From Desulfosudis oleivorans (GTDB taxonomy: Bacteria > Desulfobacterota > Desulfobacteria > Desulfobacterales > SURF-7), in NCBI GenBank assembly GCA_020723305.1, contig DYJC01000020.1:1-64000 (forward strand): a stretch of 64,000 bases of DNA, read 5' to 3'. Positions 3,638-38,531 of the stretch are shown here, one piece after another. The notes beneath the pieces were generated by a model. It ran no database searches and was not told where the DNA came from. It saw only the letters and a list, made by a program, of their open reading frames with translations. The position numbers and the translations under genes are program-made. Numbering within the stretch: position 1 is the stretch's first letter; each line of letters opens with the position of its first letter.

Positions 3638-4711
3638 TCACTCGGTATTTAACAGGATAATCCCGCAAGTACAAGACAGAATAAAGTTTGCCATCCATGC
3701 GGCAATCACAGGCGGCAGCAGTTCTCCATATCCCAGAGAGATACAGAAGCTGTGAAAAAACCAGTAGATAAAGGCGAGGCAGATGCCGATTGCAATGTTC
3801 ATCGCAAGGCCTTTCCTCTGCTGTCCGGACAATACAACGCCAAACCCCGTGATGCACATCAGAAAGCAGGCAAAAGGAAAGGCCAGTTTTCCATGCAGGT
3901 CAACCCGATACAGAATCGGATCATACCCTTCTGTATTCAGTTTTTTTACATATCGAATCATCTCCCGTATATTCATTTCTTCGGGTTTTTTAATGACGCT
4001 TTTCAGATCTTCCGGTTGAAGATCAAGAAGGATCAGTTTTTCTTTCATTGACGTTGAAGTAAAAAACAGGTCGTCCTTACTGGAAGTCAGCTCTAGAACT
4101 TCCTGCAATTGCCATGTTCCATTGAGGAAGCGCGCTTTCTGTGCATCGACTCTTCGGATCAGCTTAAACTGGTTGTCAAAATAATAGAGAGTAATTCCGG
4201 AAAGAGTCTTCTCTATATGGTTGTAATAGTTGATATGAATGATGACATCATTCTTTCTGATCCAGATATCGTTATCCCGTGTAGTGGTGACGCTCTGATT
4301 TTTGATTTCGCGCCGGACATTGTTTGCTTTTGTCTGGGCTGTTGGAACAATGGTTTCGGAAAGAAGAAAATAGGAGAGAGTCAGGCCAAGCCCCAACATC
4401 ACCACCGGCTTCAGCAAGCTCATAATTCTTACACCACTGCTTTTCAGAGCCAGGATTTCATTGTTTTTCACCATAAGACAAAAAACAATAATCGTGGCAA
4501 GTGCGGAGCATGCCGGCATCAGCATCGTGAAAATATGCGGAACCTTGAGCAGGATATATCCCAGACCATACAATAAGGGAATTTCCAGTTTCATGAAATA
4601 TCCGATCCTGGTGAGATAATCAATAATGACAAACAAGGCAATGATGACGCCCTGAACAAGACCAAGATATTTAAAAAACTCTTTCAGAATGTATTTTTGA
4701 ATGATCAGCAC
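3638..4711 (-). CDS. lptG: LPS export permease LptG
   Basis: One of the two transmembrane subunits of the LptB2FG transporter that extracts LPS from the inner membrane toward LptC. The 357-residue protein has the expected layout: three N-terminal membrane helices, a periplasmic beta-jellyroll (about residues 110-260, with IWIRKNDVIIHI) and three C-terminal helices (LAFPFACFLMCITGFGVVLS). The start is GTG 4711, which overlaps the lptF stop and gives the family's usual length; a longer frame to 4903 merely reads through lptF sequence. Overlap implies translational coupling. Second position in the pair and length favour LptG over LptF. Confidence 0.9.
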   Translation of the reverse strand: MLIIQKYILKEFFKYLGLVQGVIIALFVIIDYLTRIGYFMKLEIPLLYGLGYILLKVPHIFTMLMPACSALATIIVFCLMVKNNEILALKSSGVRIMSLLKPVVMLGLGLTLSYFLLSETIVPTAQTKANNVRREIKNQSVTTTRDNDIWIRKNDVIIHINYYNHIEKTLSGITLYYFDNQFKLIRRVDAQKARFLNGTWQLQEVLELTSSKDDLFFTSTSMKEKLILLDLQPEDLKSVIKKPEEMNIREMIRYVKKLNTEGYDPILYRVDLHGKLAFPFACFLMCITGFGVVLSGQQRKGLAMNIAIGICLAFIYWFFHSFCISLGYGELLPPVIAAWMANFILSCTCGIILLNTE

Positions 4712-5901
4712 GGGTCGTTTTGATTTTGTTTTGATTTTATCCAGTTCCAGATCCGGTAAAATAGATCGGAAACATAATCCAGGCCAATGGTTTTTTCTTG
4801 TGCAACCCGGATGAGAAACCATAATCCAACACTTCCGATAAACAGATTGGGCACCCACATCCCAATAAAAGCCGAGCACAGACCGGATCTTACGGAAGAC
4901 CATCCGATTCCAAGAAGCAGATAATAGATTAAAAAGCAGAACAGCCCCATACCCAGCCCGGATGACTGTTTTAAAAAGGCGGATTTTAGCCCAAGAGGAA
5001 CAGCCAGTAACCCCAGGGCAAAACAGGCAAACGGTATGGAGAATTTTTCATTCAGTTCCATAAGCGCATCGTTACGCTCCGCCTCGCTGGTTTTTGGATG
5101 ATGAATAAAGGCCCTTAATTCCGACAGGGTCATCTCCTTCCTTGCCTTGTTTCCTTCCTGAGACTGTTGAATGCTTTTTTTAAAATCAATATGAATATCA
5201 TAGGTGTCAAAACGGATGGTGTGCACAGACTGATCCGAGATGTTTACCCGGTTAATGATGCCATTGTTCAGTCGCATAGTGATTGCGGTCTTGTCTTTGT
5301 TCATCATTTTTGAGCCGGAAGGTGCGATAACCGTACTTCTGCTTTTTTCATCCCGCTGATCTTCGATCAGAACATCGTACAGCTTTTTTCCCTGAGGATC
5401 GATCCGGTTCACGTAAATCATGATGTTGTCAAAACTGTCGTTAAAGACTCTTTCTTTGAGAGCCGCATCGGTAAAAGAAGAGGCGATATCTATTGTAAGT
5501 TTTTTATACGAGGAATTACCCCAGGAGATCCCGTAAACGGTCATGATCAGTGTTGACAGCCATCCCAGCAGGCAGAACAGAAAAACCGGTGGAAGCAGGC
5601 TGTATATGCTGCCGCCCCCTACTTTAATGGCAATGATCTCATTGTCACCGGCCATTCGGAGGAAAGTCAGCAGAATGGACATCATGATGGACATGGGAAT
5701 GGTGAATTGAAAAAAAGACGGCATGGAATAAACAATCAGAAAGAAAAAGGATGCAATACTCGCCTGATAATTCACAATCATGTTCATGATTTCAAGAACT
5801 TGTGCAAGAAGAAAAACAAAGGTCAGAAAAGCCATGGTGAGGAAAAAGGCGGGAATCATCTCCCGGAAAATATGCCTGTTGATTATGGTGTTTATTTTCA
5901 T
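4705..5901 (-). CDS. lptF: LPS export permease LptF
   Basis: Partner of LptG in the LPS exporter. The 398-residue protein begins KINTIINRHIFREMIPAF, the typical amphipathic entry to the first helix. It continues with three helices, a periplasmic jellyroll domain (about 115-290) and three final helices with the family's FALGLLAVPLGL pattern. ATG 5901 is preferred over TTG 5922, which adds only seven residues. The stop overlaps the GTG start of lptG. The gene follows the GspE/PilT-like gene by about 70 bases on the same strand. Confidence 0.9.
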   Translation of the reverse strand: MKINTIINRHIFREMIPAFFLTMAFLTFVFLLAQVLEIMNMIVNYQASIASFFFLIVYSMPSFFQFTIPMSIMMSILLTFLRMAGDNEIIAIKVGGGSIYSLLPPVFLFCLLGWLSTLIMTVYGISWGNSSYKKLTIDIASSFTDAALKERVFNDSFDNIMIYVNRIDPQGKKLYDVLIEDQRDEKSRSTVIAPSGSKMMNKDKTAITMRLNNGIINRVNISDQSVHTIRFDTYDIHIDFKKSIQQSQEGNKARKEMTLSELRAFIHHPKTSEAERNDALMELNEKFSIPFACFALGLLAVPLGLKSAFLKQSSGLGMGLFCFLIYYLLLGIGWSSVRSGLCSAFIGMWVPNLFIGSVGLWFLIRVAQEKTIGLDYVSDLFYRIWNWIKSKQNQNDPC

Positions 5902-34173: not shown

Positions 34174-34509
34174 ATGGACAAAACACTTACACTTCAATCC
34201 AGCCTGGATAATGATCGCCTTCAATCCGCGGCTTTTCTGGCTAAAAGTTTATCAGACGCCAATCGGCTAAGGATATTACTGTTCATCAGTGATGGGAAAA
34301 AATCGGTTTCAACCATCGTTGAGGAACTTGATTTGTCCCAACCGCTGGTATCGCACCATTTAAAAGAGTTGAAACGCTCGCTTCTGGTCAAGGTGGAACG
34401 TGAGGGACCTTTTATATATTATGAGTTATCGGATTCGAGAATACTTACCGTTCTGCAGACTCTAAGTGACGTGGCGACAAACCTTTTGTCGGCGAGAAAG
34501 ACTTTTTAA
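34174..34509 (+). CDS. ArsR-family transcriptional regulator
   Basis: A 111-residue winged-helix repressor. Residues about 18-95 give the ArsR fold: LAKSLSDANRLRILLFISDG, the recognition helix SQPLVSHHLKELKRSLLV and the wing VEREGPFIYYEL. It has no cysteine at all, so it cannot use the thiolate metal sites or the persulfide-forming Cys pair (BigR/SqrR) of well-studied members. The signal may be sensed another way, or by a partner. It is the first gene of the selenoprotein cluster and 21 bases before the next gene. Confidence 0.87.
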   Translation: MDKTLTLQSSLDNDRLQSAAFLAKSLSDANRLRILLFISDGKKSVSTIVEELDLSQPLVSHHLKELKRSLLVKVEREGPFIYYELSDSRILTVLQTLSDVATNLLSARKTF

Positions 34510-34530: not shown

Positions 34531-34980
34531 ATGAATCAGCTTTTTGAAATTATTTCCCGTATGGCCCCTGAAAAGGCTCTGGCGGAAATTACAAAAATCC
34601 TCGGGAATCTTCTGGCTGACCTGGATAACGAGGCGCGTGAGCGTTTTATGATAAATCTGATCGGACAGTCTGAAGGCGACAAAGTAAGCAGCATGGTGCA
34701 TTTGTGACTGGCCGAATGCATGGGCGAAGGTGTCGACCCAACGACGATGTGTCAAAGCCTTGTGGATAAGGTCGCTCAATCCCGGCAACTTGCGGCGATC
34801 GCCAATCCGGAACTGCTGGTGCTTTTTGAGGACTGGCTTGAAGAGATTGAAGAAGAGGTCATCTCTTTTATCGTAAAAAACGGTGATGCGGATGCGGATG
34901 AGCTTGCCCGGAATCTTGGACTATCCAGAAGGGGCGCTACGTTTATCCTGTCAAAATTGAAACGAGAAGGAAAAATATAG
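34531..34980 (+). CDS. Predicted selenoprotein (in-frame UGA at codon 59), unknown family
   Basis: ATG 34531 (GGAGG upstream) opens a frame that meets TGA at 34705-34707 and continues unbroken in the same frame to 34980, giving 149 residues with Sec at 59. The join reads SSMVHL-U-LAECMGEG, so Sec precedes a Cys by four residues. The C-terminal 60 residues (DADADELARNLGLSRRG, then ATFILSKLKREGKI) look like a winged-helix DNA-binding tail. The N-terminal half is helical. A hairpin at 34721-34740 meets the bacterial SECIS rule. A simple nonsense mutation is the alternative, but codon structure on both sides is intact. It may be a redox- or metal-responsive regulator in an operon with TauE and rhodanese-DsbD genes. 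Confidence 0.68.
34721..34740 (+). promoter_or_regulatory. Candidate bacterial SECIS element for UGA 34705
   Basis: TGGG-CGA pairs with TCG-CCCA (one bulged A at 34736) around the loop AGGTG (34728-34732). The loop starts 20 bases after the UGA (allowed 16-37) and has G in its second position, both required by the published bSECIS model. The loop resembles the GGUCU loop of E. coli fdhF. Confidence 0.6.
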
Positions 34981-35053
34981 CCTATAGCCCGTTCCGGTTA
35001 CATATGAAGATCTGGTAGCTGCCATCAGAAAAAATAAATAGGGAGAAAACCGG

Positions 35054-35842
35054 ATGGATGTTCCTTTTCTTTTGACGCTTGTCATCCTCGGCCTTGGAGG
35101 AGGATTCCTATCTGGTTTGCTGGGGCTTGGCGGGGCGATTTTCATGATTCCGCTCCTTTTATATGTCCCGCCGATCCTTGGCGTTGGTCATCTGGATATG
35201 AAACAGGTCGCAGCGATCAGTATGGTTCAGGTGCTTGCAGCCTCGCTTTCCGGCATGATCGCTCATAATAAAAACAGATTCGTCAGCAAGTCGGTTCTCT
35301 TCTATATGGGAATCTGCAATGCAATCGGCAATCTTGCGGGTTCTTTTTTTTCTAAAGGCGTAAAAAGTTCGTTCCTGCTCGCTATTTTTGCGTCTATGGC
35401 TGTCATCGCCGCAGTCACCATGTTTATTCCAAAGCGTGAACAGGGCGAGGATTTTTCTCCTGATGAGATAAAATTCAATATACCGCTTGCAGCGGCTCTC
35501 AGTCTTGCAATCGGCAGTTTCGGAGGGATGGTCGGAGCGCCGGGCGCATTTATCTATATTCCGGTTATGATTTATCTGCTTGGTATTCCGACTCGTATAG
35601 TCATTGGTAGCAGTCTTGGGATTGTATTTATGGGTGCTTTGACAGGAACTATCGGGAAGATGGCCACAGGACAGATCATCTGGCCGTACGCCCTTGCGCT
35701 GGTTTTAGGGACAATTCCTGCTTCCCAAGTTGGCGCCCATGCCAGCAAAATAATGAACACCGGATATCTCAGGCTTGCCATCGCAGTGATTATTGCCCTG
35801 ACCGGGCTGAGAATGTGGTACCAAATTATTGAAGGGTATTGA
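35054..35842 (+). CDS. TauE/SafE-family sulfite/organosulfur exporter
   Basis: A 262-residue permease with about eight membrane helices in two repeats. Each repeat starts with the family's glycine-rich motif: GLGGGFLSGLLGLGGAIFMI and, in the second half, GSFGGMVGAPGAFIYIP. TauE/SafE proteins move sulfite, thiosulfate, sulfoacetate or related small anions across the inner membrane. In the same direction between the Sec protein and the rhodanese-DsbD fusion, it suggests transport of a sulfur (or selenium) compound. GGGAG precedes ATG 35054. Confidence 0.87.
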   Translation: MDVPFLLTLVILGLGGGFLSGLLGLGGAIFMIPLLLYVPPILGVGHLDMKQVAAISMVQVLAASLSGMIAHNKNRFVSKSVLFYMGICNAIGNLAGSFFSKGVKSSFLLAIFASMAVIAAVTMFIPKREQGEDFSPDEIKFNIPLAAALSLAIGSFGGMVGAPGAFIYIPVMIYLLGIPTRIVIGSSLGIVFMGALTGTIGKMATGQIIWPYALALVLGTIPASQVGAHASKIMNTGYLRLAIAVIIALTGLRMWYQIIEGY

Positions 35843-35897
35843 ACGGGTGCTGTCGAGCTCTATTCCGGAAAATAAAACAGGAGATAGGGGAAGAGAC

Positions 35898-37664
35898 ATG
35901 AAAAAGAAAGCATCATTTTTTCCGGCGATTGTGGCAGTGGTTATAACCGCTGCCTCCGTCTGGTATGTTCAGCGTCCCGCCGTACCAAAGCAAACCACAT
36001 GGGATGACGTGCAGGTGGAGGCCAGGGCCGGCGGTTATCGTATCATTACCACCGAAGATCTTGCCGATCTGTATCATAAGGCTCCTTCCGGTCTGCTGAT
36101 AGTGGATACCCGCCAGCCGTGGGAATACCGCACCGGGCATATTGATGGGGCGGTGAATTTTCCGATGGAACCTACGAGATGGGAGCGCTGGCGAAAGGTG
36201 TCTGGCCTGAAGAACTTTTTAGGACCGGATAAGAACCGCACTCTTGTGTTTTACTGAGCGGGCTTGACATGAGTCCGCAGCGACTCAGCGGCCCGTGTGG
36301 CCGTTACACTTGGTTACAAAAACGTCTATCGCGATCCCTATGGATTCCCCGAGTGGCAGAAGCAGGGGCTGCCTGTTGTCAGTGACCAGACAGACCGTTC
36401 CACATCTGCGGATGAAACGGCAAAGTCGATTGCCACTCACAACCTTCAGGGCTGGGCCATGATCTGGACGTTTCTGGGCATTTTTGCCGGTGGGCTGGCC
36501 TTGAACCTGACGCCGTGTGTTTATCCAATGATTCCCATCACCGTTTCGTTTTTCGGCGGGCGGGCAGCCCAGGAAAAACTGAGCCAGTTTAAACTGGTTC
36601 TCCATGGGCTCTGTTACCTGATAGGCCTTACCCTGACCAACTCAACCCTTGGCGTGGTGGCAGCCTTTACCGGTGGTTTAATGGGGGCGATGCTGCAAAA
36701 TCCTGTTGTGCTTGTCCTTGTCGCCGGTGTTCTGGTTCTGTTTGCTACCAGCCTTTTTGGTCTTTGGGAACTGCGCCTGCCCGGAGCCTTAAACCAGATG
36801 GCCGGTAAGTCCTACACTGGATATTTTGGAAGTTTGTTCATGGGGCTGACCATGGGTGTGGTGGCCGCGCCCTGCATCGGCCCCTTTGTGCTGGGTTTGC
36901 TCACATGGGTGGCCAGCGTGGGCAATCCGTGGCTCGGATTTCTGGTTTTTTTCACCCTGAGCCTTGGGCTGGGCATTCCTCTTTTTGTGTTGGCGCTTTT
37001 TTCCGGGCAACTCCAGCGGCTTCCCCGTGCCGGTGGATGGATGCTCTGGGTACGTATGCTTATGGGCTGGGTACTGGTGGGTATGGCGGCTTTCTTTATA
37101 CGTCCGATTCTACCGGACGCTGTAAGAATCTTCCTGACAGCCGGTGTCGCAGTGGCTGCCGGTTTGCATCTTGGGTGGATCGATAAAAATCAGGCGGGTT
37201 TCAGCGCGTTTCCATGGCTGAAAACCATTGTGGGCACAATGTGTCTGGCGCTTGCAACCTTCTGGGTCACCGTTTGGATCATGCAGGGACCGGGGATCGC
37301 CTGGCATTCCTATTCGGAAGAGGTTTTGAGGCAAGCTGTTGAGCAAAAGAAGCCGGTCATCATTGACTTTTATGCCGACTGGTGTACACCATGCCGTGAA
37401 TTGGAAGAAACCACCTTTCATAACCCTGTTGTGGTTCAGCAGGCGCAAATGGATTATATCATGATCAAGGTCAACGTAACCCAGAGCGGCAATGGTTTGA
37501 ATGAGCGCTTGTTGAAACAGTACAGCGTCAAGGGCGTACCCACGATCGTGTTTCTGGATGCATCGGGGAAAGAACGATCCGGTCTTCGTCTGGTGGATTT
37601 TCTGCCGCCCGATCAATTTCTGGGTCGTATGGCCAGCGTGAAAAAACACAGGCCAGAGCCATAA
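35898..37664 (+). CDS. Predicted double-Sec rhodanese-DsbD-thioredoxin fusion
   Basis: ATG 35898 starts a frame that continues through TGA at 36255 and 36270 to 37664, giving 588 residues with Sec at 120 and 125. Order: N-terminal anchor/signal helix (6-24); rhodanese domain (about 45-155, IVDTRQPWEYRTGHIDGAVN, then LVFY-U-AGLT-U-VRSDSA and GYKNVYRDPYGFPEW); DsbD/CcdA membrane domain (about 185-445, with redox Cys in LTPCVYP 207 and AAPCIGP 326); thioredoxin domain (about 465-588, WCTPC 496/499). In ordinary rhodaneses of this type the two UGA positions are Cys (FYCxGxxC), so UGA falls exactly on catalytic residues. Each UGA has a SECIS-like hairpin. Such a chain could carry reducing power from the cytoplasm to an exported selenium rhodanese. 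GGGGAAGAG precedes the ATG. Confidence 0.8.
36258..36295 (+). promoter_or_regulatory. Candidate bacterial SECIS element for UGA 36255
   Basis: TGAGTC (36270-36275) and GACTCA (36282-36287) form a perfect stem with loop CGCAGC. An outer stem CGGGC/GCCCG (36259-36263 with 36291-36295) extends it. The loop begins 18 bases after the UGA and has G in second position, satisfying the bSECIS rule. The second UGA lies in its stem. Confidence 0.65.
36287..36305 (+). promoter_or_regulatory. Candidate bacterial SECIS element for UGA 36270
   Basis: AGCGGCC (36287-36293) pairs with GGCCGTT (36299-36305), one G-U pair included, around loop CGTGT. The loop is 21 bases after the second UGA, with G at position two. 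It shares bases with the outer stem of the first hairpin, so the two would form alternately as ribosomes advance. Confidence 0.6.
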
Positions 37665-37715: not shown

Positions 37716-38531
37716 ATGGAAAATGAATCGATTATACGTTTTGGGATTTTTGTTGGTGTGTTCGCCATCTTGGCCTTGTTGGAAATCCTTTCACCCCGAA
37801 GAATACTTACGACCGCAAAGCCACGTCGCTGGTTTATCAACCTGGTGATCTTGATCCTTAACCCCTTGATTGTGCGCCTTGTCTTTTCTATTTTGCCTGT
37901 TGGCATGGCCATACTATCTTCGGAACAGCACTGGGGACTGTTAAACAGCATAGACTTTCCCGATGAGCTCAAAATATTGGCCGGCGTGATCTTGCTTGAT
38001 CTGGTCATCTACCTTCAACATGTTCTGTTTCATGCGGTTCCAGCACTCTGGCGGTTGCATATGGTGCATCACGCGGACCTCGATTTCGACTTGACTACCG
38101 GGCTAAGGTTTCATCCCATTGAAATTCTTTTGTCTATGGGCATCAAGGTTTTAACCGTGTCCGCGCTTGGAACGCCTCCAATGGCCGTCCTTATTTTCGA
38201 GGTGGTTTTGAACGCCACGTCCATGTTCAATCACAGTAATATCCGCATCCTCGTTAAAATAGATCGAATTTTACGTCTTTTTATCGTAACACCGGATATG
38301 CATCGCGTCCATCACTCGGTGATCATCAACGAGACCAATAGTAACTATGGTTTCAGCTTACCCTGGTGGGATCGACTCTTTGGAACATATAAAGATCAGC
38401 CGGACAAAGGTCATACCGGCATGACGATTGGTCTGTCTCAGTTTCGGGACGAGCAAGGGTTGTCCCTGCCAAAGCTGTTGCTCCTTCCGTTCACAGGTGA
38501 TCCCGGTCGCGTGCCCATCAATCGGCGCTGA
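37716..38531 (+). CDS. Sterol desaturase / fatty acid hydroxylase superfamily membrane protein
   Basis: A 271-residue membrane di-iron protein. Four or five helices carry the histidine boxes of the family: HVLFH, HMVHH and, near the C-terminus, HRVHH. Such enzymes hydroxylate or desaturate lipids using O2, which is odd for a presumed strict anaerobe. It may serve under microoxic conditions or have another activity. It lies 51 bases after the selenoprotein fusion on the same strand and may be the last gene of that operon. Confidence 0.85.
   Translation: MENESIIRFGIFVGVFAILALLEILSPRRILTTAKPRRWFINLVILILNPLIVRLVFSILPVGMAILSSEQHWGLLNSIDFPDELKILAGVILLDLVIYLQHVLFHAVPALWRLHMVHHADLDFDLTTGLRFHPIEILLSMGIKVLTVSALGTPPMAVLIFEVVLNATSMFNHSNIRILVKIDRILRLFIVTPDMHRVHHSVIINETNSNYGFSLPWWDRLFGTYKDQPDKGHTGMTIGLSQFRDEQGLSLPKLLLLPFTGDPGRVPINRR

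Follow-up and report, generated by a model that had tools for sequence, protein, structure and literature searches.

In DsbD, electrons are passed from cytoplasmic thioredoxin to the membrane domain, from there to the gamma domain and finally to the alpha domain.

A protein family that resembles DsbD in part is registered in NCBIfam as 'rhodanese/DsbD fusion-like selenoprotein TsoB' (NF045694). In the accessible part of a 2026 review (PMC13188914), TsoB is entered as 'Rhodanese-like domain-containing protein form 5' with motif UxxxxU and two selenocysteines (Sec); the review cites Haft and Tolstoy 2025 (mSystems) for TsoB, and the Tso operon is described there too. The other Sec rhodaneses in its table, forms 1 to 4, are like TsoB in carrying Sec in a rhodanese-like domain, but have one Sec each. 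Apart from this review, no paper on TsoB or on a rhodanese/DsbD selenocysteine fusion was found among the matches listed in a literature search.

The locus described here lies in the window, the 64,000-nucleotide stretch of Desulfosudis oleivorans that was analysed (contig DYJC01000020.1, positions 1 to 64,000). The window protein and the NF045694 family are alike over their whole length, share the two Sec residues (UxxxxU) and are linked to tsoR and tsoA. The window locus differs in that a TauE-family gene separates tsoA from tsoB and that no tsoC match follows tsoB; the source genome differs in that a second TsoB is encoded in it, next to an ArsR-rhodanese regulator. An earlier note on this DNA, made from the sequence alone, had called a double-Sec rhodanese joined to DsbD unusual, a judgement that falls away with NF045694 and the accessible text of PMC13188914. 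As the family, its two Sec residues and the operon are already in print, the find itself is known and not new. As far as checked, the hairpin covariation, the Cys-Cys paralogue, the domain-swap argument and a second regulatory setting without TsoA are new here; Haft and Tolstoy 2025 may already contain some of these points.

Sequences and Alignments

Relatives were collected by scanning genome_contigs with both full TsoB copies of the source genome as queries, resulting in 34 relative loci. Their titles name sulfate-reducer or other deltaproteobacterial groups, mostly metagenome-assembled. The protein alignment of 34 sequences comprised 32 of the 34 relative loci (L036 and L062 were left out), the window copy and L002, the second copy of the source genome. 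The same alignment minus L002 was used for structure prediction.

Hairpins were compared in 59 distinct rows, aligned without gaps from the first TGA onward. Repeats of other stretches (L001, L003, L065, L076, L100, L101 and L102) were left out, duplicates (L064, L066, L070 and L080) were removed, and eight loci (L089-L096) had no two-TGA row. Broken or cut copies were kept (L004 from contig C16, L097 with a TAG, L098, L099, L088 and L062). For mutual information, 25,651 pairs of third positions at conserved residues across the whole gene were ranked in 54 rows, without L062 (cut by a contig end), L066, L070 and L080 (duplicate hairpin rows), L076 (the C44 copy) and C16.

Results

Frame and domains of tsoB

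The earlier note had joined two reading frames into a single one, with no interruption other than TGA at 36255 and 36270. Translation with TGA read as Sec bore this out: 35898-37664 on the + strand gives 588 residues, and the two TGA codons, at residues 120 and 125, are the only in-frame stops inside it. The loop around them reads LVFY-U-AGLT-U-VRSDSA and contains the UxxxxU motif that the accessible part of PMC13188914 lists for TsoB. The parts follow each other as a predicted N-terminal membrane anchor helix, a rhodanese, a DsbD-like membrane domain and a DsbD-gamma-like thioredoxin domain:

35898..37664, + strand: tsoB (NF045694), frame open except for two TGA
36051..36362, + strand: rhodanese domain, residues 52-155 (PF00581, E 4.9e-14; rhodaneses also matched by Foldseek)
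36255..36257, + strand: Sec120 codon, in-frame TGA at the rhodanese catalytic Cys position
36270..36272, + strand: Sec125 codon, in-frame TGA with two bases within the 5′ arm of hairpin 1
36465..37112, + strand: DsbD membrane domain (DsbD_TM), residues 190-405 (PF02683, E 1.2e-40)
37299..37562, + strand: thioredoxin domain, residues 468-555, with WCTPC (C496, C499; PF13899, E 9.1e-17)

The TsoB model NF045694 matched with 970.5 bits (cut-off 805) over model positions 5-572 of 572. The product of 35898-37664 is almost certainly TsoB with two predicted Sec residues, encoded in a Tso (three selenoprotein operon) locus. In the protein alignment, with Sec read as C, the positions of Sec120, Sec125, C207, C326, C496 and C499 were invariant.

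Conservation of the two TGA codons

Both TGA codons were found at the same codons, with pattern UAG[LF][TA]U, in 34/34 relative loci, 33 by pattern search and L058 by row comparison. The TsoB cut-off was passed in 22 of 395 genomes of the phylum, giving 24 matches; 23 of these carry the two TGA without any further stop in the frame. The remaining match, L096 (G278:C128), is free of TGA. It is full length (913 bits), its frame is open, its loop region reads FYCAGPDCVRSDAA, and its motif is CAGPDC with Cys at both Sec positions, the kind of homologue that the earlier note had suggested seeking. Sec and Cys therefore appear to exchange jointly at both positions in the sole Cys case seen. G278 carries two more copies, of which one is complete with both TGA and the other is broken, with a TAG in addition to two TGA.

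Two further copies were found in the source genome. The copy on contig C44 is full length, with 62% identity over residues 8-583 and the same two TGA. The copy on C16 is decayed: it has the same two TGA, matches residues 89-188 and 460-583 only, contains a TAA, shows two large deletions relative to the intact copies and lacks the DsbD domain as well as the start of the rhodanese. The sequences show that the two UGA codons are conserved and occupy redox-Cys positions. A pseudogene or ordinary stop was rejected on this TGA conservation.

Selenocysteine apparatus

The source genome (5.4 Mb, 97.9% complete) was searched for selA, selB, selC and selD, as the earlier note had advised, and all were found. 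Scores were above the family cut-offs for selA (623 bits), selB (382 bits), tRNA-Sec (selC; 73 bits, anticodon TCA, UCA in RNA) and selD (376 bits; G000:C41:10371-11294, L026), the last with one in-frame TGA of its own. The predicted genes to make and insert Sec are present in this genome. Since the apparatus is complete, genome-wide UGA recoding was set aside as unnecessary. Among the 22 TsoB genomes, selA was above cut-off in 20, the two misses being 62% and 79% complete; it was also above cut-off in 22/22 genomes without an over-cut-off TsoB. The presence of selA is not discriminating as a test of TsoB.

Hairpins after the two UGAs

The two SECIS-like hairpins proposed in the earlier note are supported by comparison of the 59 rows:

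36271..36286, + strand: hairpin 1, for the first UGA, core stem of 5 bp (36271-36275/36282-36286)
36288..36304, + strand: hairpin 2, for the second UGA, stem of 6 bp (36288-36293/36299-36304)

The loop of hairpin 1 (36276-36281, mostly CGNAGY) starts 18 nt past the first UGA and that of hairpin 2 (36294-36298; CGGGU, CGUGU or AGGGU) 21 nt past the second, each with G as second loop base, in agreement with the G expected among the first two loop bases of a bacterial SECIS. They are arranged in a staggered way, two bases of the second UGA being part of the 5′ arm of hairpin 1. The earlier note had drawn them one pair longer, at 36270-36287 and 36287-36305, with the same distances of 18 and 21 nt. 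The core stems are kept across the rows and the outermost pairs are not: 36270-36287 was formed in only 48/59 rows and 36287-36305, the seventh pair of hairpin 2, in only 25/59.

Hairpin 2 was paired in 352 of 354 cells (six pairs in 59 rows). The third bases of Ala131 and Ala135 were G-C in 40 rows, A-U in 14, C-G in 3, G-U in 1 and A-C in 1; those of Ala132 and Val134 were C-G in 54 and U-A in 5. By normalised mutual information, Ala132-Val134 (1.000) and Ala131-Ala135 (0.637) ranked 1 and 2 among the 25,651 third-position pairs, followed by a pair at 0.433. On the TsoB tree, in which 17 of 51 inner branches were unsupported, Ala131-Ala135 changed at least 7 times and Ala132-Val134 at least 4 times. 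A tree-based sign test of covariation yielded 4 and 2 independent pairs on starred branches (median p 0.25 and 0.5, respectively) and was underpowered.

Hairpin 1 was paired in 291 of 295 cells (five pairs in 59 rows). No covariation was found for it in these rows, and it is supported by near-invariant synonymous sites alone. At the third base of Val126, as at that of Asp129, entropy is 0.13 bit, compared with a minimum of 1.31 bit among 15 other Val and 0.78 bit among 7 other Asp.

Folding of isolated 56-nt segments, a check of the kind proposed in the earlier note, was modestly better at most than that of shuffled sequences. The three copies had z-scores of -1.88, -1.71 and -0.78, at best weakly significant, and the minimum-energy fold of the window segment contained a different first hairpin; pair probability in this segment was about 0.11 for hairpin 1, while hairpin 2 held up at about 0.88. 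The alternative first hairpin was rejected, its third bases varying freely across rows. As the three copies folded in three different ways, isolated folding was set aside and conservation across rows was relied on instead. The Cys-Cys paralogue L096 can still form the core pairs (hairpin 1 with wobbles, probability about 0.04; hairpin 2 about 0.5), which means that a copy without Sec can pair as well. With Rfam, nothing reached the gathering score in the window, and lax settings on 34690-36400 returned four matches far under their gathering scores, none of them SECIS. Each UGA is followed at a suitable distance by its own conserved predicted hairpin. Synonymous-site covariation for the second SECIS and constraint for the first add evidence that is independent of the family name.

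Comparison with DsbD and with other rhodaneses

Window TsoB is DsbD-like in its membrane domain with paired Cys and its C-terminal thioredoxin domain. Unlike DsbD, it has as N-terminal domain a rhodanese with Sec-x4-Sec instead of DsbD_N; no Pfam match to DsbD_N (PF11412, alpha domain) was found in window TsoB, and its score with the DsbD model NF001419 was 268.3 bits, below the cut-off of 330. DsbD-like matches below the TsoB cut-off aligned from model position about 160-180 on, without the rhodanese, and the one examined, paralogue L089, has DsbD_N, membrane and thioredoxin parts. These alignments and the DsbD_N of L089 suggest that TsoB is a DsbD in which a rhodanese has taken the place of the substrate domain.

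Single-domain and CxGxxC rhodaneses share with TsoB the fold, the catalytic Cys position and, in most rows, RS after the loop; TsoB differs from them in having Sec at both loop positions and in being joined to a DsbD relay. The earlier note assigned Cys at both places to ordinary relatives. This holds for the long-loop CxGxxC type, to which L096 (CAGPDC) and the ArsR-rhodanese (CRGPYC) belong, but not for the three solved rhodaneses that were aligned (of 20 chains matched): their loop is two residues shorter than that of TsoB, and they have the first Cys only, the Cys of FYC aligning with Sec120. The AlphaFold model of TsoB (mean pLDDT 67.0, pTM 0.42) was too weak for domain contacts or topology. 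Searched with Foldseek, this model of modest quality matched the DsbD C-terminal domain best, through its own C-terminal thioredoxin domain, and rhodaneses next; matches to its N-terminal part were rhodaneses, including the Wolinella polysulfide-sulfur transferase 1qxn at rank 21.

Tso neighbourhood

Four genes flank tsoB on the same strand of the window:

34174..34509, + strand: tsoR, ArsR/SmtB-type regulator (NF045707, 166.1 bits, cut-off 115)
34531..34980, + strand: tsoA, small winged-helix selenoprotein (NF045695, 214.6 bits, cut-off 170)
35054..35842, + strand: TauE/SafE-family permease, between tsoA and tsoB (PF01925, E 1.3e-43)
37716..38531, + strand: fatty acid hydroxylase-family protein, directly 3′ of tsoB (PF04116, E 4.7e-29)

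The sequence of window TsoR is free of Cys, and nothing in it points to a persulfide sensor. TsoA has one TGA (34705-34707, in LULAEC) and HTH_24 in its C-terminal part. No TsoC match was found 3′ of window tsoB; the only one in the genome adjoins the C16 copy.

Neighbour counts in the 34 relatives are lower bounds, because some loci end near tsoB. TsoR was found upstream of tsoB in 21, TsoA in 20 and an ArsR-rhodanese fusion in 4, and TsoC just downstream in 23. The TsoA motif codon is TGA in 18/20 (for the other 2, a pattern search did not find the motif), and the TsoC pattern NEPxGxx ends in TGA in 25/25 downstream matches. TsoR and the ArsR-rhodanese fusion were never both adjacent to tsoB in the 34 relatives. 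The fusion precedes tsoB in L031, L044, L051, L053 and G000:C44 (L002; CRGPYC loop), and nine loci have neither (L030, L037, L041, L045, L046, L048, L049, L052 and L055). In L032, two ArsR-rhodanese genes lie farther upstream on the other strand. An ArsR-rhodanese in place of TsoR and TsoA possibly marks a second regulatory class. Among other neighbours, a fatty acid hydroxylase-family homologue occurs within 5 kb downstream of tsoB in 5/34 relatives. With one representative tested per family, a VTT-domain protein family recurs in 11/34 loci and a thioredoxin-reductase-like family in the flanks of 6/34, once on the other strand. TauE had a single match in the 34 relatives, in L061, elsewhere and on the other strand.

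Discussion

Two Sec residues in the rhodanese loop, as the earlier note had predicted, are supported by the Sec machinery, the conserved TGAs, the Cys-Cys paralogue and the covariation of hairpin 2. That both UGAs are instead real stops, in a pseudogene or between two separate proteins, is extremely improbable. Decay does occur in this family, since the third copy on C16 is truly broken by two large deletions and a TAA and the extra copy in G278 by a TAG beside its two TGA; against a general explanation of this kind stand the shared TGA pair without other stops in 23/24 over-cut-off matches, selABCD in the genome and the covarying hairpins. It is also unlikely, though less so, that an efficient SECIS of its own exists for just one UGA, probably the second, with the first poorly served or served by the same hairpin. 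Such an arrangement would fit the restriction of covariation to hairpin 2 and the weakness of hairpin 1 in isolated folding. It sits badly with the stem of hairpin 1, whose synonymous bases vary far less than those elsewhere in the gene, and with its loop 18 nt after the first UGA; moreover, a ribosome terminating at the first UGA never gets to the second.

For a TsoB with two Sec residues, the fused thiol relay suggested in the earlier note is plausible. By analogy with DsbD, it is fairly probable that the protein is an electron relay ending in a Sec-Sec rhodanese. Electrons would be taken from cytoplasmic thioredoxin by the DsbD-type membrane domain (C207/C326) and handed on to a thioredoxin domain that faces outward (C496/C499). 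This domain would in turn reduce the Sec120-Sec125 pair as last relay, the rhodanese standing where the N-terminal (alpha) domain of DsbD would be. Sec120 may take up sulfane sulfur (from persulfide, polysulfide or thiosulfate) or a similar oxidant, Sec125 would free the reduced product through formation of a diselenide, and the thioredoxin domain would re-reduce the latter. We infer sulfur uptake by Sec120, resolution by Sec125 and an outward-facing side. The thioredoxin-reductase-like family fits this relay, though it was seen near tsoB in only 6/34 loci.

Sulfane sulfur as the substrate of this rhodanese is a reasonable candidate, put forward tentatively. Only slightly less credible is a two-Sec TsoB with the same wiring acting on something else: peroxide, arsenate or another oxyanion, a selenium species or mixed disulfides of exported proteins. 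Such a substrate would suit the loop, which exceeds that of the three aligned solved rhodaneses by two residues, and the regulator, named as an ArsR/SmtB-type metalloregulator. CDC25 phosphatases, which have the rhodanese fold, are also among the sequence matches; their match covers the stretch before the loop and is therefore weak support. Sulfur is favoured instead by the context, namely the TauE/SafE-family permease in the window and the ArsR-rhodanese regulator beside the C44 copy and in 4/34 relatives.

Taken as a whole, and with the same reserve, TsoB might be a selenium-based, membrane-powered sulfane-sulfur reductase, in which a diselenide-forming rhodanese has replaced the substrate domain of DsbD and reducing power from the cytoplasm is used to clear persulfide or polysulfide on the outside of the membrane in sulfate reducers and related bacteria. 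It would exist in two regulatory forms, TsoR-TsoA and ArsR-rhodanese, and would be read through two staggered SECIS, the first with a stem that takes in some of the second Sec codon. The relay, if true, would provide a testable function for the Tso operon, for which the accessible part of PMC13188914 gives none.

Additional Observations

Synonymous bases are also strongly conserved after the Sec codon of TsoA (34705-34760). A bulged stem, GGGCGA/UCG-A-CCC with loop AGGUG, could be drawn there by eye, its third pair changing from G-C to A-U in 2 of 19 rows (L054 and L062); folding of this TsoA segment gave no significant structure (z -0.15) and did not favour the stem drawn by eye.

A decayed Tso remnant lies at G000:C16:38167-39034 (L004, L101), where the broken TsoB is followed by the only TsoC match of the genome. 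This match (48.4 bits, cut-off 45; model positions 5-50 of 87) looks damaged as well, the expected start and the matched part being in different frames when compared by eye with L034. In L034 itself, frames resembling a J-domain protein and a methyltransferase were seen by eye between tsoA and tsoB (3660-4940).
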